Origin: Oscillospiraceae bacterium
Lineage (GTDB): Bacteria; Bacillota; Clostridia; Oscillospirales; Oscillospiraceae
Direction: 5' to 3'
DNA length: 64,000 nt
NCBI GenBank assembly: GCA_015067435.1
Contig: SVMM01000018.1
Span: forward strand, 1 to 64,000
Shown: piece by piece, positions 33,670 to 53,481 of the stretch
Layout of the letters: each line of letters opens with the position of its first letter
Numbering within the stretch: position 1 is the stretch's first letter
Notes under the pieces: model-generated
What the model was told of the DNA's origin: nothing
Seen by the model: the letters and a program-made list of their open reading frames with translations, nothing else
Databases searched by the model: none
Program-made: the position numbers and the translations under genes

Positions 33670-33761
33670 GCAGTGGTATCGAAGTGGTCATAACGAGCAC
33701 GACTGGAAATCGTGTGAGGGACAAAATCTCTCCGAGGGTTCGAATCCCTCCCACTGCGCCA
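33670..33761 (+). tRNA. tRNA-Ser(GGA), insertion target of the CRESS-type element
   Basis: Acceptor GCAGTGG (33670-33676) pairs with CCACTGC, followed by G and encoded CCA. The D-stem is TCG/CGA. The anticodon stem-loop is CACGA-CTGGAAA-TCGTG, anticodon GGA. There is a class II long variable arm and T-arm GAGGGTTCGAATCCCTC. From 33703 onward the sequence belongs to the repeat shared with 37344-37501. The 3' part of this functional gene is therefore supplied by the element, and the chromosomal original sits at the far end. Confidence 0.95.
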
Positions 33762-33860
33762 TGAAAATCCCCGAAACCAAAGGGTTTCGGGGATTTTTGC
33801 ATCTGTTCGGAAAGGCGCTCGAAACGCGGTCAAATCGGCGGCTGTTCTACCATTTGTTCT
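33703..33860 (+). repeat. Left copy of the 158-bp attachment-region repeat
   Basis: Matches 37344-37501 at 157 of 158 positions (single C/T difference in AAAGG[C/T]GCTC). It covers the tRNA-Ser 3' part from the anticodon loop, the terminator hairpin and about 60 bases beyond. Confidence 0.92.
33764..33797 (+). terminator. Terminator of tRNA-Ser (duplicated at the far end of the element)
   Basis: 15-bp perfect stem AAAATCCCCGAAACC / GGTTTCGGGGATTTT with loop AAAG. An identical copy sits at about 37405-37438 as part of the 158-bp repeat. It can act in both directions and would also end integrase transcription. Confidence 0.85.
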
Positions 33861-33865
33861 GCCAT
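33844..33865 (+). promoter_or_regulatory. Direct repeat near left end, candidate integrase arm site
   Basis: GTTCTACCAT (33844-33853), two bases, GTTCTGCCAT (33856-33865). The same 12-bp-period pair occurs at 37234-37255 and 37485-37506. Tn916-type integrases use short direct repeats near element ends as arm sites. Confidence 0.6.
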
Positions 33866-33870
33866 AGCTG

Positions 33871-34992
33871 TTAGGAAATGCCCTTGAGCAGCCCGTCCAT
33901 CACGCCGATAGCGCCCTCCTGCATCTCCGTGATGACGTGGGAATAGGTATCGAGCGTTATGCCGATGGAGGAATGACCGAGCATTGACGAGACGATTTTC
34001 GCAGGAACGGCGTTTCGCAGCATCAAGGTCGCGTTGGTGTGCCGGAGGTCGTGAAACCGTATCGTCGGCAGCGTCGCAGCTTCAAGCACATCGTGGAACT
34101 GATGTTGCAGCACGCCGGAGGTCATAGGCTTTCCGTCATAGCGGCAGCAGACCAATCGCAGCGGATTGTAGGCAGCGCCGAGGAATCGCGCGGCATCCTC
34201 CTGTTTTGAGTGTGCACTTTCAAGCGCATCGTGCAGTATGTCCGGCATGAGCAGCGTCCGGCGGCTGTTCTTGGTCTTTGTGGTCGATAGCTCTATACCA
34301 CCTTGACGGAAGCTCGCCGAGTGCGTTATCGTGACCGTTTTCGCGTCGATGTCCACGCAGTCCCATTGAAGCCCCAACGCCTCACCACGGCGCAAGCCGA
34401 GCGTCACGGCAAGCAGAACGGGCAGATAGATTTCCGTCTCGCTGCAAGAGCGCAGCAGCGTCTTGACCTGTTCCGGCGTCAGCGGGGACGCTTCGAACCC
34501 CTTGATTTTGGGAGGCTCAACGAAATCAGCGGCGTTTTTACCAAGCACTTGCGTTTTCACGGCGTATTGGAGAGCGCGGTGCAGGTTGTTATGGACATAG
34601 CGGACGCTTGTGCCGGAAAGCCCATCGTCGGCGAGGTCGTCATAGAGCTTTTGCAGGTCTTTCGGCTGTAGCCTGTTCAGCTGTATGCTGCCGATGTGCG
34701 GAATGATGTGCTTTTCGATGTTCACCCTGTAGCCGTTGACCGTGTTCGCAGCAAGCCGAGGCTCGCAGACCTCTTTGAGCCAATGACGGAGGAACACGGC
34801 AACCGTAGAATCGTCCACCTTGCGTTCGAATGTGCTTTCAAGCTCGTCAATGCGTGCGCGGAGCGCTCGTTCTGCCTCGCGTTTCGTCGCCCAGCTGCCC
34901 TCCCATTTGCGTTTCCAATCGCCGTTGGCATCTTTTCCGATGTAGTAGTAAATATACCACCTGTTGCGCTTCTTCGCGACAGACCCTTGCAT
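33871..34992 (-). CDS. int: Tyrosine recombinase integrase of the CRESS-type element
   Basis: 373 residues. An AP2-like arm-binding N-terminus (about 1-55, with RWYIYYYIGKDANGDWKRKW) is followed by a SAM-like core-binding domain (about 60-155) and the catalytic domain. Catalytic residues are visible: Arg201 (TLGLRRGEALGL), His314-x-x-Arg317 (HDLRHTN), His340 (LGHSS) and Tyr350 (DTYSHV). It belongs to the Tn916/ICE-type integrases that use tRNA or similar sites. The start at 34992 has GGAGG inside the 3' end of the excisionase gene, so the two are coupled. The stop lies 5 bases from the candidate arm site and about 110 bases from tRNA-Ser. Confidence 0.95.
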   Translation of the reverse strand: MQGSVAKKRNRWYIYYYIGKDANGDWKRKWEGSWATKREAERALRARIDELESTFERKVDDSTVAVFLRHWLKEVCEPRLAANTVNGYRVNIEKHIIPHIGSIQLNRLQPKDLQKLYDDLADDGLSGTSVRYVHNNLHRALQYAVKTQVLGKNAADFVEPPKIKGFEASPLTPEQVKTLLRSCSETEIYLPVLLAVTLGLRRGEALGLQWDCVDIDAKTVTITHSASFRQGGIELSTTKTKNSRRTLLMPDILHDALESAHSKQEDAARFLGAAYNPLRLVCCRYDGKPMTSGVLQHQFHDVLEAATLPTIRFHDLRHTNATLMLRNAVPAKIVSSMLGHSSIGITLDTYSHVITEMQEGAIGVMDGLLKGIS

Positions 34993-34996
34993 GATT

Positions 34997-35173
34997 TCAG
35001 CCTCCTTTCACGCTTGCGTTGAGCCACGCATAGAACGGCGCGGCGGGAATGACGCGCCGCTTGCCGATGCTGATATGCGGTGCCCTGTTCTCGCGGATCA
35101 GCTGATACATGGAGCTTGTGCTGATACGCATGATTGCGGCGGCTTCCTTAACCGTTAATACTGTCTGTTCCAT
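34997..35173 (-). CDS. xis: Excisionase-like helix-turn-helix protein (HTH_17 type)
   Basis: 58 residues, ATG at 35173, TGA at 34997. The protein has the MerR/excisionase fold: LTVKEAAAIMRISTSSMYQL (helix-turn-helix) then the wing and beta hairpin ISIGKRRVIPAAPFYAWL. It sits between rep and int, the usual place for a recombination directionality factor, with a GGAGG site shared with int. Expected role: binds element ends and biases the integrase toward excision. Confidence 0.85.
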   Translation of the reverse strand: MEQTVLTVKEAAAIMRISTSSMYQLIRENRAPHISIGKRRVIPAAPFYAWLNASVKGG

Positions 35174-35194
35174 TCCGATAACCTCCTGCTTTTA

Positions 35195-36247
35195 TTAAAA
35201 TGGCATATCTATTTCATTCTGAATCTCAACGAATTGCCCTGTGCTACCCAAAAGTGCCTGTCGCTTGAGCGTTTCATAATCCTTGTATTGCTGCATTGGC
35301 GTCTCAAACCTGTGATAGTTGCCCTCTGCATCTTTCCAATGGTAAATCACCGCCTTAATTCGGCGGCGCAGCTGTTCATAGGTATCAACACTGCGGTTGC
35401 TGTCCACCATGTTTTGATAGACCATTTCCGGCGGTAGAATCGTCGTGATATGTACGACGTCCCATAAGGCGTATGCGTTAGCATATCGACATGATAATTG
35501 CACCTTGTAGCCGTCCAGATAATTCATCAGTTGAGCAAAGCGCATCTGACCGCGAAATTCGTCCATATACAGGATTGGCTGTCCACAGTAGAGGTCTAAT
35601 CCGCCTTTCTCATAATCTGTCAGCAAATAGACCTTGTCCTCGCCGTGTAGCTCACAGTCTTTGACATAGCCGTATGTTTTGCCCGACCCGCTTTCACCAA
35701 CATGCCAATATACAGAAACCTCACGTTTCGGAGGAACGCTCTTTACCCGCATATCAAAAAAAGCTTGTCGCACCATCTTTTCATAGCGTCGAAGCGGGAA
35801 AGACAATGCAAAGATTTCGTCCGGCGTCATGCCTTGCAGCAACAGTTCCTCGATAATGTCCAAATCACGACGCTGACCTTGTGCGCCTTTGATTTCACCG
35901 CGACGGGCAGTATAGAGGACTTGTTCACCCTTTTCTTGCCATTTGCCGCGCTTCTGTATGTATTCCTCCGCTTGCTCTTTACTGCCCTTTGTAGGCTCAA
36001 TGTGCATGGAGGGGAACGCCTTTTTGACAGCGGAAAAACGCAGCGCTTTTGAATCTTCCAAGACGACATGACAGTGATGCAGACCGTCAGCAGAGATGCA
36101 GTAGGCAACGGCACAAGTGCGCGTTGGAGAATCCTTTACCCAATCATCGGCAATTGCGTCGGCTGCTTCTTCCGGCGAACCACCGAAACCATGCTCAGCC
36201 GGATTATTGAAGACGCAGAACCAACTTTTTGAGACGTCATTTGCCAT
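35195..36247 (-). CDS. rep: CRESS-type replication initiator (HUH endonuclease plus superfamily 3 helicase)
   Basis: 350 residues from the ATG at 36247 (GGGGTG six bases upstream; a TTG codon directly before it is less likely). Rolling-circle motif I is FCVFNNP (10-16). Motif II is HCH (58-60, in GLHHCHVVLED). Motif III is Tyr96-x-x-Lys99 (EEYIQKRGKW). The helicase part has Walker A GESGSGKT (184-191), Walker B ILYMDE (225-230), a B' region YLDGYKVQLSCRYANAYALW and motif C-like VHITTILPPEMVYQ (265-278). This order and size are those of Reps of CRESS-DNA viruses and related bacterial pCRESS plasmids. Tyr96 would nick the TAGTATTAC loop 120 bases upstream. The family's usual motif C Asn is replaced by Ile/Leu. 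Confidence 0.92.
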   Translation of the reverse strand: MANDVSKSWFCVFNNPAEHGFGGSPEEAADAIADDWVKDSPTRTCAVAYCISADGLHHCHVVLEDSKALRFSAVKKAFPSMHIEPTKGSKEQAEEYIQKRGKWQEKGEQVLYTARRGEIKGAQGQRRDLDIIEELLLQGMTPDEIFALSFPLRRYEKMVRQAFFDMRVKSVPPKREVSVYWHVGESGSGKTYGYVKDCELHGEDKVYLLTDYEKGGLDLYCGQPILYMDEFRGQMRFAQLMNYLDGYKVQLSCRYANAYALWDVVHITTILPPEMVYQNMVDSNRSVDTYEQLRRRIKAVIYHWKDAEGNYHRFETPMQQYKDYETLKRQALLGSTGQFVEIQNEIDMPF

Positions 36248-36261
36248 CAAGTCACCCCATT

Positions 36262-36365
36262 TGTAACGAAGTTGCGCTTGTAACCGCCATGTAACGAAAT
36301 TGCGTTACAACCTACAATGCCGAAGCTTTGCGGCTTCCGGTTTGCTTTGTAACTTGTAACGAAGT
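36262..36365. repeat. Iteron-like repeats TGTAACGAAGT between rep and the stem-loop
   Basis: TGTAACGAA(G/A)T occurs at 36262-36272, 36290-36300 and 36355-36365. Partial TGTAAC copies lie at about 36279 and 36348. The last copy runs into the stem of the origin hairpin. CRESS-virus Reps bind short iterons placed between the hairpin and rep, so these are the likely Rep-binding sites. Confidence 0.7.
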
Positions 36366-36390
36366 CGGGGGTAATACTAGCCCCGACTTC
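36361..36390 (-). other. Rolling-circle origin stem-loop with TAGTATTAC nonanucleotide
   Basis: Perfect 10-bp stem GAAGTCGGGG / CCCCGACTTC with a 10-base loop. On the rep (minus) strand the loop reads CTAGTATTAC, containing the nonanucleotide TAGTATTAC. This nonanucleotide, or one-base variants of it, marks the nicking site at the apex of the origin hairpin of circo-, nano- and geminiviruses, cut between the seventh and eighth base. The hairpin lies about 115 bases upstream of rep. Confidence 0.88.
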
Positions 36391-36418
36391 TCCCATTCCG
36401 AGACTAAGCTAGGGGATG

Positions 36419-36438
36419 CGCGCGACTGCGGTCGCGCG
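36419..36438. other. GC-rich hairpin in the element control region
   Basis: 8-bp stem CGCGCGAC / GTCGCGCG with loop TGCG. Function unknown; it could help second-strand priming. Confidence 0.55.
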
Positions 36439-36445
36439 GCGGCCG

Positions 36446-36480
36446 CGTTGGGCTGCAAGTCCGTATATTGCAGCCCAACG
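36446..36480. other. 13-bp-stem hairpin, candidate second-strand origin or terminator
   Basis: CGTTGGGCTGCAA and TTGCAGCCCAACG pair perfectly around GTCCGTATA. No T-run follows. Rolling-circle replicons need a structured single-strand origin, and this is the best candidate in the element. Confidence 0.55.
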
Positions 36481-36541
36481 CAGCCTTTAACCCGTTCCGC
36501 GGCTTTTGTGCCTCTATCCGGCAGCTGGCACATCGGCGCTG

Positions 36542-36649
36542 TAGCACGTTTCGTGCTATCTGTATACTATCATAGCATTAATTATGCTGTCAAGCATTAT
36601 TTGTGATATTCTACTTGCTTTTCTGCTATCTCTATGCTATGGTTAGCAT
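36542..36649. promoter_or_regulatory. Three palindromic operators upstream of the XRE regulator
   Basis: TAGCACG-TTT-CGTGCTA (36542-36558), AGCAT-TAATT-ATGCT (36574-36588) and ATGCTA-TGGT-TAGCAT (36634-36649) share the half-site TAGCA(T/C). The last overlaps the region just upstream of the regulator's ribosome site. This is the typical array for an autoregulated XRE repressor that also controls the divergent rep operon. Confidence 0.65.
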
Positions 36650-36665
36650 GAAAGGTGGTGTTGAT

Positions 36666-37172
36666 ATGGCAAACAACCGCATAAGCGCCCTACGGCACGA
36701 ATACGGCTTGAACCAAAAGGAGCTGGGGGAAAAGCTCGGCGTCGGGCAAACGACTGTCAGCGCGTGGGAAAAAGGCAAGAACGAGCCAGACAACGAAACC
36801 CTGCACAAGATGGCGCAGCTGTTCCGCTGTTCTATTGACTATCTGCTCGGACACGCGAACGACGAGCGAACGCGAGGACTGCCGCAGGAGGAACGTGCCA
36901 AGCTCACGGAAAACGACCGAGCTGAAAAACAGCTTGCAAAGTATGAGCGTGAGCTTTATTATCAAGAGGGCGGCTTGACGCCGGAGGAAGAGGAAGACCT
37001 TATCGAGAGCACAGCACGGCAAGAATATGAGACATGGTTGGAGACGCACCCCGATTGCTATTTCGAGACGTTCAAGGTCAATCAGCTGTGTGAGCGGCTT
37101 AATGCAACACAGCGGAAATGCTTGCTCACGATGGCGTCGGCATACGAGGAAGGTATCCGCGCGGACAGTTAA
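36666..37172 (+). CDS. XRE-family transcriptional regulator of the element
   Basis: 168 residues from the ATG at 36666 (AAAGGTGG upstream); earlier in-frame ATGs lie in the operator region without ribosome sites. The N-terminal HTH (ALRHEYGLNQKELGEKLGVG ... TTVSAWEKGKNEPDNETLHK) covers about residues 6-60. A charged helical C-terminus (about 70-165, EEEEDLIES ... MASAYEEG) probably dimerises. It is divergent from rep and preceded by three TAGCAT palindromes, so it most likely represses its own gene and rep, controlling copy number or induction. Confidence 0.88.
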   Translation: MANNRISALRHEYGLNQKELGEKLGVGQTTVSAWEKGKNEPDNETLHKMAQLFRCSIDYLLGHANDERTRGLPQEERAKLTENDRAEKQLAKYERELYYQEGGLTPEEEEDLIESTARQEYETWLETHPDCYFETFKVNQLCERLNATQRKCLLTMASAYEEGIRADS

Positions 37173-37177
37173 AACGC

Positions 37178-37222
37178 GGGACACCCGCCACGCGGCTAAA
37201 GCCTTGCCGTGGCGGGTGTCCC
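37178..37222 (+). terminator. Strong inverted repeat after the XRE regulator
   Basis: 15-bp perfect arms GGGACACCCGCCACG (37178-37192) and CGTGGCGGGTGTCCC (37208-37222). There is no T-run, so it may be a terminator of weak type or a structural element at the right end. Confidence 0.65.
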
Positions 37223-37233
37223 GTCCCCCTTGC

Positions 37234-37255
37234 GTTCTACCATTTGTTCTACCAT
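37234..37255 (+). promoter_or_regulatory. Direct repeat near right end, candidate integrase arm site
   Basis: Two exact copies of GTTCTACCAT (37234-37243 and 37246-37255) at 12-bp period, the best copy of the motif also found at 33844-33865 and 37485-37506. It lies about 90 bases inside the right crossover region. Confidence 0.6.
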
Positions 37256-37343
37256 GCCAATGTAACACATGCTTTTCGTGCTCATAACGTACCACACACA
37301 GCACGTAAAATGCTATTTTAGCGGGTTCTATGCTGTGGCGCTT

Positions 37344-37501
37344 CTGGAAATCGTGTGAGGGACAAAATCTCTCCGAGGGTTCGAATCCCTCCCACTGCGC
37401 CATGAAAATCCCCGAAACCAAAGGGTTTCGGGGATTTTTGCATCTGTTCGGAAAGGTGCTCGAAACGCGGTCAAATCGGCGGCTGTTCTACCATTTGTTC
37501 T
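37344..37501 (+). repeat. Right copy of the 158-bp attachment-region repeat (tRNA-Ser 3' remnant)
   Basis: Carries the tRNA-Ser 3' part from CTGGAAA to CCA without the 5' half, then the terminator hairpin and about 60 bases. The preceding TGGCGCTT cannot form the anticodon stem, so this copy is not a functional tRNA. An arm-like site (37485-37506) at its end hints that a second, now lost, copy of the element once sat to the right. Confidence 0.9.
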
Positions 37502-37544
37502 AACATGCGCAAGGCTGGTCCGGGCGGTCTTGATGCCGTCTATG

Positions 37545-37574
37545 ACCGCTTGCACCGCTTTTGCTACCGCTTGC
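37545..37574 (+). promoter_or_regulatory. LytTR-type binding site upstream of the signalling operon
   Basis: ACCGCTTGC at 37545-37553 and again at 37566-37574: 9-bp direct repeats with a 12-bp spacer (21-bp period), ending 10 bases before the -35. This is the known geometry of LytTR boxes, and the half-site fits their consensus at 7-8 of 9 positions. A near copy with identical spacing lies at 45931-45960. Confidence 0.7.
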
Positions 37575-37584
37575 GCCAATTCGC

Positions 37585-37613
37585 TTGAAAACATTTATTT
37601 CAATCGATATCAT
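37585..37613 (+). promoter_or_regulatory. Promoter of the Hpt/kinase operon
   Basis: TTGAAA (37585-37590), 17 bases, TATCAT (37608-37613), about 70 bases before the Hpt start codon. Confidence 0.7.
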
Positions 37614-52143: not shown

Positions 52144-53481
52144 ATGAGAGCCTATCTCACATCGCTGCTGTCTTGGTTCATCGTGCTGAGCGCGGCGGCG
52201 CTCTGCATCGCGCCGATGCGCCACCGGCTGCGCCACGGCCCCGTCGGCACGCTGTGGCGCGCGGCGGCGCTGTTTGCCGTGGTCCTGCCCGTTCTGGCGT
52301 TTGTCGAAACGCGCTTCGACCTGCCCTACAACGCGACGCTGCTGCCGATGCTTCTGCTCGCGTACGCGGCATACCGCTCCGGCGTGCGCGCGCAGGGGTA
52401 TCAGTGTCTGGGCGCCTTCGCGTTTGTCTGCGCGCTGATGAGCTTCGTTGCCAACGTCGCCAACGGCTTCGACGCGATCCTGCACCCCAGCTCCACGCTC
52501 AACGATTTCAGTCTGGAGGCGGCGGCGTTTGAGGCGGCGCTCGCCTTTGCCGTCGCGGCGTTGGCGTATTACCCGCTCCGGCGCTACGGCGCTTACATCG
52601 TCGACAACTTTGACGTCAGTCCCGTCTGGTACATCACCGTGGCGATGGACGCGGTCTTCCTGACGTTCAACCTGCTCATTACGCCGCAGAAGTACGAAAA
52701 CATGCACGTCGGCCGCGTGTTTATGATCTACTGGCTGGTGCTCGCGCTGATGTTCGCGCTGCTGTTGCTGCTGTGCGTGGTGTTCTACAGCATCGTCAAG
52801 GCCATGATGCTCTCGGCGGAGACGCAGGAGCGCAACCGCATCCTGGAGCTGCAGGAGAGCCAGTTCCTCACCCAGCAGCGCTATATGGAGGCGACGGCGC
52901 GCGAGCGGCACGACTTCCGCCACACGATCGACGTCATCAGCGAGCTGGCGGAGGCGGGCGACTATGCCGAGTTGCGCAAGTATATCAAAGCCTACGCCTC
53001 CTCGCTGAGCGAGAACGAGCTGCGGCGCTACTGCGACAACCGCGCCGTCAACGCGCTGGTGAACCACTACGCGCAGATGGCGAAGCAGGAGAGCATCGAG
53101 CTGAACGTCAGCATCCGCATGCCGGAGCGCGTCGGCGTCTCCGAGGTCGATCTGTGCGGCATCCTGGGCAACATGCTGGAAAACGCGATGCTCGCCTGTC
53201 GCGAGCTGCCGGAGGACCGCCGCCGCGTCAGCCTCACCATGACGCTGCGCGCGGGCGGCGCGCTGTACATCGTCGTGATGAACAGCTTCAACGGCGTCAC
53301 GAACCAGCACAACGGACGCTACCTCTCCACGCGGCACCGCGGCAGCGGCGTCGGCCTCGACTCGGTCGCCGCGACCGCGGAGCGCTACGACGGCATGGCG
53401 GAATTCCGCCACGAGGACGGCGTGTTCTACAGCGACGTCATGCTCCGCACGCGGCCGACCGGCACCGCCGCCGAGGCATAG
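52144..53481 (+). CDS. GHKL-type sensor histidine kinase (AgrC/LytS-like), orphan
   Basis: 445 residues. Six or seven TM helices (about 1-225) are followed by a coiled linker (ETQERNRILELQESQFLTQQ). The phospho-acceptor region is RHDFRHTID (His256) and the GHKL ATPase has boxes LGNMLENAMLAC and GSGVGLDSV. This is the class that usually pairs with LytTR response regulators. No receiver-LytTR gene lies beside it; the only LytTR gene in the window (46244) lacks a receiver. The input is unknown. It ends at a strong terminator. Confidence 0.88.
   Translation: MRAYLTSLLSWFIVLSAAALCIAPMRHRLRHGPVGTLWRAAALFAVVLPVLAFVETRFDLPYNATLLPMLLLAYAAYRSGVRAQGYQCLGAFAFVCALMSFVANVANGFDAILHPSSTLNDFSLEAAAFEAALAFAVAALAYYPLRRYGAYIVDNFDVSPVWYITVAMDAVFLTFNLLITPQKYENMHVGRVFMIYWLVLALMFALLLLLCVVFYSIVKAMMLSAETQERNRILELQESQFLTQQRYMEATARERHDFRHTIDVISELAEAGDYAELRKYIKAYASSLSENELRRYCDNRAVNALVNHYAQMAKQESIELNVSIRMPERVGVSEVDLCGILGNMLENAMLACRELPEDRRRVSLTMTLRAGGALYIVVMNSFNGVTNQHNGRYLSTRHRGSGVGLDSVAATAERYDGMAEFRHEDGVFYSDVMLRTRPTGTAAEA

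Follow-up and report, generated by a model that had tools for sequence, protein, structure and literature searches.

What kind of genetic element occupies a bacterial tRNA-Ser gene with little more than its own replication and integration genes, and to what does its replication machinery correspond? This question is raised by a 64,000-nt stretch of DNA from an Oscillospiraceae bacterium (contig SVMM01000018.1, positions 1 to 64,000; hereafter the window), in which a unit of 3,641 bp (33703–37343) lies inside a tRNA-Ser(GGA) gene and contains only the genes of an integrase (Int), an excisionase (Xis), a replication initiator (Rep) and an XRE-family regulator. An original prediction, made from the sequence alone, had described the unit as a minimal replicon of the circular Rep-encoding single-stranded (CRESS) DNA type.

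The analysis indicated that the element is very probably a p4M-like pCRESS plasmid that integrates, can be excised and replicates by the rolling-circle mode, its virus-type replication cassette being exchangeable. The strongest evidence, absent from the original prediction, is a hairpin carrying the CRESS nonanucleotide, the iterons beside it and a swap of rep together with the origin in a related genome. As far as the searches go, this origin with iterons, the clean swap and a mixed Rep clade are new, while the plasmid kind was already known.

Putative Replication Origin and Iterons

A putative double-strand origin hairpin with a 10-bp stem and the loop CTAGTATTAC was located at 36361–36390 on the minus strand, approximately 129 nt upstream of the rep start codon. 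On the rep strand its arms read GAAGTCGGGG and CCCCGACTTC (z −4.6), and the loop contains TAGTATTAC, the CRESS nonanucleotide. The sequence AGTATTACC occurred once in the window, against 0.06 expected, and at least once in 6 of 100 shuffles. TATTAC occurred ten times, and only the copy in the origin hairpin stood in a perfect stem of at least 8; none of the 12 occurrences of the reversed motif did so. A looser stem rule allowing mismatches also picked positions 52564 and 33259.

The motif was first noticed in the window and the relatives were tested afterwards. In a first set of 32 rep loci, window included, the 300 nt upstream of rep were analyzed, using dinucleotide shuffles for the TATTAC expectation. 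The motif was present in 27 of them (2.0 expected) and the reversed motif in none, and a hairpin around TATTAC was formed in 22, including the window (0.17 expected). A second set of 30 further loci, evaluated with mononucleotide shuffles, yielded the hairpin in 20 (0.18 expected), or in 19 of 29 after removal of L090, a duplicate of L017. These loci are not independent draws, as they comprise this exact duplicate and four Rep pairs 87–97% identical. The stems differ widely among the 42 hairpins of the 62 loci, 41 of which read AGTATTAC and one (L111) ACTATTAC. Additionally, two contigs of genome G005 (C7 and C16, loci L077 and L079) break off at AGTATTAC, some 54 nt before rep begins; these ends look like an assembly break at a repeated or circular replicon.

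Six copies of the iteron GTTACA, one of them inverted, were found at 36262–36360 on the minus strand (plus-strand starts 36262, 36279, 36290, 36304 [inverted], 36348, and 36355), a tandem pair directly following the hairpin and four more copies coming after it. Circovirus origins have a tandem iteron pair next to the nonanucleotide hairpin. The iterons were tabulated for ten loci of the window's Rep clade with a hairpin near rep and for 13 further loci. The tandem pair stood beside the stem in all ten window-clade loci, the first iteron abutting or overlapping the 3′ arm (with one altered letter in L022) and the second starting 6–8 nt on; a further copy followed 70–78 nt on in nine of the ten, later copies being variable. 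The letters themselves varied: GTTACA in the window, L016, L017, and L019, GATACA in L020 and L022, GTAACC in L023, GTCACA in L030, GGTACA in L025 (two copies only), and a mixture of two iteron types in L018. A layout that remains constant while the letters change is what a bound Rep would be expected to impose. The element thus appears to carry the nonanucleotide hairpin origin with iterons that is a trait of CRESS viruses.

Exchange of the Replication Cassette in a Related Genome

A natural replacement of this region was found in G014, a genome of the same genus. Its contig C49 (locus L058) carries a 3,889-bp unit between 59-nt repeats of the tRNA-Ser 3′ end, and its Int, Xis, and XRE proteins are 90, 97, and 53% identical to those of the window. 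The blastn comparison gave matches over 33702–35173 (86%), 36412–36881 (80%), and 37175–37450 (77%) and no similarity over 35174–36411, and these junctions delimit a putative exchangeable replication cassette composed of Rep, iterons and origin hairpin. In its place, G014:C49 encodes a different initiator of 281 amino acids (PF23343, REP_ORF2-G2P, 1e-13), and TATTAC was not found in this element. Since the gap holds Rep, iterons and hairpin, and the G014:C49 element is without TATTAC, the hairpin travels with Rep in this one comparison. Two other hairpins of the window, 36441–36485 and 37177–37223, fall in blocks shared with the G014 backbone.

Among 149 relatives searched, an integrase this close was present only in G014 and in the window's own genome. 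The left tRNA part of L058 equals that of the window over 59 nt, and its right copy differs by two. In the stretch examined a complete tRNA gene was absent beside L058, and neither repeat copy is preceded by a tRNA 5′ half; hence, L058 may sit within a tandem array. Elsewhere, G014 encodes a Rep belonging to the second clade of the Rep tree (C203, L076). A 30-nt perfect repeat (2289–2318 and 2907–2936 of L058) surrounds an insertion of two open reading frames, one of them XRE-like by eye, and this insertion is a possible entry point for cargo.

The Rep Protein, Its Relatives and Known Plasmids

Rep (350 amino acids, 35195–36247, minus strand) has the two-domain architecture of an HUH endonuclease and a superfamily 3 (SF3) helicase, with the HUH residues H58/H60, Y96xxK99, a Walker A motif at 184–191 and MDE at 228; H58, Y96, and K99 were invariant in the 28 rows of the family alignment, and H60 nearly so. 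Motif III is YIQK, not YLxH. The CRESS-type assignment of the original prediction was supported by PDB and profile searches and by the relatives. Alone, the protein matched 9pqj (“replication-associated protein,” 3e-6) and 7lar (“helicase Rep,” 3e-4), and the 28-row profile matched 7lar over both domains (7e-33) and 9pqq (2e-19). All 11 PDB matches of the profile below 0.001 are labeled Rep, replicase or replication-associated protein, and no plasmid initiator label appeared among its 27 PDB matches with E up to 1; the PDB includes pMV158 RepB. We take 7lar to be a circovirus Rep and 9pqj and 9pqq to be redondovirus Reps, the significant matches of the profile presumably all being CRESS virus proteins. 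At a threshold of 0.01, 23 of the 28 family members matched RNA_helicase in Pfam and 21 matched Viral_Rep, the window member not being among them. The AlphaFold2 model of Rep reached a mean predicted local distance difference test score of 83.3 (at least 70 in 301 of 350 residues) and a predicted template modeling score of 0.60.

One scan of genome contigs provided 15 close Rep loci (43–62% identity). Counting the window's own genome, Rep matches were found in 11 of 199 relatives, in three of 398 genomes of the phylum (E 1e-30) and in 30 of 394 of the order (E 1e-20), the L017 contig being also present in the order genome G612. In a tree of 50 Reps the window fell in a 14-row clade (support 100/99); its neighbor there is L016 (98/89), which comes from a Clostridia genome of the roe deer rumen. 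The set of XRE, Rep and Int recurs in L016 (XRE and Int by Pfam) and in L018, L023, L025, and L026 (by phmmer or by eye). Attachment repeats overlapped other tRNA genes in four of the 15 close loci: Pro (47 nt, unit of 4,032 bp), Met (47 nt, 4,319 bp), Gln (70 nt, 4,482 bp), and Leu (25 nt, 4,113 bp). The script found none in the other 11, several of which are cut by contig ends.

The integrated form of pCRESS plasmids has been reported before (main text of Kazlauskas et al., 2019; PMC6668415), so that a minimal bacterial CRESS replicon is already a known kind of element. According to that main text, YLxH as motif III marks pCRESS4–8, and the element shares with the p4M-like pCRESS1–3 an HUH and SF3 Rep without YLxH, site-specific integration at attachment repeats and the lack of structural genes. 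It fits pCRESS1–3 taken together, groups 1, 2, and 3 not being separated; no capsid gene is present among its four annotated genes. A search of 72,556 plasmid records with Rep at 1e-5 returned p4M alone (28% identical), and no DNA match to the element was found among these records. With CRESS-DNA viruses (Circoviridae and kin) the element shares the Rep domains, the nonanucleotide hairpin and the tandem iterons at the stem, but it differs from them in its lack of a capsid gene, its bacterial host, its tyrosine integrase and its integration in a tRNA gene.

The words “nonanucleotide,” “stem-loop,” “integrase,” and “tRNA” are absent from the main text of PMC6668415, and passages of PMC8780604 describe the loop in viruses but not in pCRESS; two other papers containing both “nonanucleotide” and “pCRESS” concern SPHINX/BMMF. 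In the open-licence literature, only virus papers were found for NANTATTAC among the matches listed, and open-licence main texts contained no report of a TAGTATTAC-type origin in bacterial elements, although one may be in print elsewhere.

Filamentous Phages With Related Reps

RS1 and TLC are satellites packaged by a helper filamentous phage. The element might likewise be such a phage's satellite, or derive from one by reduction, with a phage-type Rep and origin and packaging by the coat and Zot proteins of the helper. All six phage records matching Rep were bajarodino viruses (Rep 28–30% identical), which fall in the second Rep clade; the two records examined (L031 and L032; 5.7 and 10.2 kb) are classed as Inoviridae and have an annotated Zot and the same origin hairpin, whereas no Zot was detected in the window with three phage Zot phmmer queries (frames of at least 50 codons, 1e-4). 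Among the 15 close loci, a Zot-family protein above the Pfam cut-off, also matching Zot-like and head-and-packaging PHROGs, was encoded near rep in L022, L027, L028, and L029. Inspection by eye also showed small membrane proteins and a large protein with a signal peptide there, and the four loci were read as filamentous prophages of Clostridia. In L028, other small open reading frames stand between rep and its origin, 1.1 kb upstream.

The satellite interpretation can also draw on the regulator, whose best NCBIfam match is the RstR family (below cut-off), and on the REP_ORF2-G2P initiator of G014. Nevertheless, PF05707 (Zot) was not found in the 96%-complete host genome, which means that no helper phage was found there, and no packaging signal was identified. 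A tyrosine integrase was detected by phmmer in nine of the 15 close loci, including L029, and eight of these nine have no match to Zot, some of the contigs being cut short. Furthermore, a scan of viral contigs for the origin pattern gave five matches, none with this Rep. On balance, a satellite or reduced phage is unlikely.

None of these five pattern matches was accompanied by this Rep (by hidden Markov model), and inspection by eye showed no hairpin at any of them. Three (L140, L141, and L143) were also inspected for open reading frames, and in each the match lay inside a reading frame; an origin without Rep in viral contigs was thus rejected. The search of viral contigs with the single Rep matched none of 17 candidate stretches, and the Rep profile gave four loci.

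Integrase elements and filamentous prophages appear to be mixed within one Rep clade, which is new as far as the searches go. Two inovirus-like genomes with CRESS Reps (ctbe30/ctbc27), together with inferred prophages, are given in passages of Tisza et al. (2020; PMC7000223), and according to the main text of PMC6668415 Inoviridae Reps lack the helicase domain. The words “helicase” and “CRESS” are absent from the main text of Roux et al. (2019; PMC6813254).

Integration Site and Its History

The tRNA-Ser(GGA) gene was identified by ARAGORN at 33670–33761 (plus strand), its 3′ part falling within the left attachment repeat. This element-borne copy (33703–33865) begins at the anticodon loop, and the right repeat (37344–37506) resembles it over the full length of 163 nt, with three mismatches (160/163 identical). 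As these direct repeats are spaced by 3641, the borders 33703 and 37343 given in the original prediction proved to be exact. Past the tRNA terminator, both repeats reach a tandemly repeated 11-nt motif, ATGGYAGAACA, found again close to the right end of the unit. Two arm-type repeats on the minus strand, ATGGCAGAACAAATGGTAGAAC (33844–33865) and ATGGTAGAACAAATGGTAGAAC (37234–37255), are candidate integrase arm sites, with which the ATGGYAGAACA repeats are compatible; of the 101 family genomes, only the window's own contained the exact pattern, at two sites.

Could the element be a decaying, immobile remnant? Its right repeat is perhaps the scar of an earlier insertion, since the identity to the left copy continues beyond the tRNA part. 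Rep is present in a single copy in its genome, and in G013, which has the same left flank, only the last 66 integrase residues (91% identical) remain beside tRNA-Ser. Against decay, however, all four genes are open, Int and Rep retain their catalytic motifs, the origin, iterons and both repeats are present, and the backbone is 77–86% conserved in G014, where the integrase is also open. A remnant is therefore quite improbable.

The empty tRNA-Ser site expected in relatives was seen in part. In G004, which has the same left-flank genes, tRNA-Ser is directly followed by a terminator-like repeat (by eye) and then by an unrelated gene, and the same arrangement was found in G005, which shares about 54 nt of the left flank. 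In G001 and G002 (L062 and L064) the tRNA-Ser(GGA) gene holds other integrases, 28–32% identical, as in an integration hot spot. An open reading frame at 37328–37594 (minus strand) crosses the right repeat and could be the tail of an older gene; a remnant at 37507–37594 is not claimed, as phmmer returned only the window's own DNA and a match with E 0.096.

Discussion

Two further explanations concern the parts of the cassette. The hairpin could be a regulatory or terminator structure with a convergent likeness to the CRESS nonanucleotide, as its position between rep and the divergent regulator and the two strong hairpins close by might suggest; the recurrence of TATTAC hairpins on many different stems (42 of 62 loci, counting one duplicate), the iterons beside the hairpin in every window-clade locus tabulated and its departure with Rep in G014:C49 make this very improbable. 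A non-CRESS initiator of the pMV158 type, named in the original prediction as part of what would overturn it, could appeal to the weak Pfam score of the single Rep but is already contradicted by the SF3 domain with Walker motifs, by YIQK instead of the YLxH found in the helicase-less Reps of pE194/pMV158-type plasmids, and by the PDB matches of the profile.

Several results nevertheless weigh against an integrative rolling-circle plasmid with a virus-type cassette. By itself, Rep matched Viral_Rep only below the cut-off (E 0.011), with nothing at 0.01. p4M, the sole pCRESS reference compared, forms a long branch in the Rep tree and is only 28% identical. Iterons are less clear in the 13 loci outside the window clade: GTTACA copies occur in L028 and tandem hexamers beside the stem in L071, L075, and L080 (by eye), the rest having no plain array. 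An empty site with both flanks was found in none of 17 genus relatives. Strong matches to the right-flank gene came from G013 (C79) and G003 (C176) alone, on contigs other than those of their tRNA-Ser, so that contig breaks may conceal such a site.

Finally, the hairpin was missed in ten of 32 loci of the first set (L021, L024, L027, L028, L029, L033, L069, L070, L077, and L079) and in ten of 30 of the second (L085, L088, L104, L107, L110, L113, and L115–L118). Little upstream DNA was available in seven of these: L021 (118 nt), L077 and L079, whose contigs end at the motif, and L085, L115, L116, and L117 (0–106 nt upstream of rep). The hairpin stands farther upstream in L028 (in full, 1.1 kb), L029 (4.8 kb) and L088 (about 400 nt), and the motif lies within a mismatched hairpin in L069 and L110. 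In L024, L027, L070, L104, L107, L113, L118, and p4M (L033), neither a short upstream region nor a displaced or mismatched hairpin was found in the tested stretch.

What the DNA itself shows is the site-specific position in tRNA-Ser, a CRESS-type origin and four genes with open reading frames (int, xis, rep and XRE); self-excision would be a prediction. The following cycle can be proposed for the integrative plasmid. The XRE protein would repress rep; once this repression is lost, the 163-nt repeats would be recombined by Int and Xis, releasing a circle of 3.6 kb. Rep would then bind the GTTACA iterons, the hairpin would be extruded, and Tyr96 would nick within TAGTATTAC. After unwinding by the SF3 domain, a host polymerase could copy the circle by the rolling-circle mode, and the resulting single-stranded circle would be turned into double strand. 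Int would return copies to tRNA-Ser sites, rebuilding the tRNA. Rep and origin would constitute one exchangeable cassette, related forms of which are carried by filamentous phages.

In the literature examined, it is from Rep sequences that CRESS viruses are proposed to descend from bacterial plasmids. The bacterial origin described here, which has the viral loop and iterons arranged in a similar way, adds to this evidence. It is an evenly balanced question whether the entire replicon of eukaryotic CRESS viruses (Rep, hairpin, tandem and distal iterons) is one ancient exchangeable cassette that still passes between plasmids without a capsid gene, integrated in tRNA genes, and the filamentous phages of Clostridia; in that case the viruses would have inherited the origin together with Rep, instead of evolving it anew. 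Whether a bacterial Rep cuts the viral-type loop becomes a testable question, given an element that is small, with delimited parts, and the natural cassette swap of G014. Possible destinations of bacterial CRESS Reps are indicated by the filamentous phages that carry related modules.

Other Genes and Signals of the Element

The gene content proposed in the original prediction for this tRNA-integrated unit was borne out by the open reading frames and Pfam. The tyrosine integrase (373 amino acids, 33871–34992, minus strand; Phage_integrase 4e-25, PHROG 4e-77) has the catalytic motifs RxGE, HxLRH, and Tyr. It is accompanied by an excisionase-like protein (58 amino acids, 34997–35173, minus strand; HTH_17 7e-10, and NCBIfam TIGR01764 above cut-off) and, divergent from rep, by the XRE-family regulator (168 amino acids, 36666–37172, plus strand; HTH_3 1e-16). 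No separate relaxase was found among the four genes by family-profile searches.

The structured control region of the original prediction is real, as the three hairpins (z −4.6, −6.1, and −6.4) each folded better than all 200 shuffles. The 18-bp backbone hairpin at 36441–36485 has the core GCAAGTCCGTATATTGC, exact only in G000 and G014 among the relatives scanned; a one-mismatch match in G026 was set aside as chance level, since the reversed control gave two. As a guess, this hairpin might be a single-strand origin or a regulatory element. The 16-bp inverted repeat 3′ of the XRE gene (37177–37223), in a block kept in G014, is a candidate terminator or other signal, for which the same two roles might be guessed. 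Additionally, recurring AGCAT/ATGCT and AGCAC/GTGCT words at 36543–36650, by the XRE promoter, and at 37278–37335, by the right end, are candidate XRE operators.

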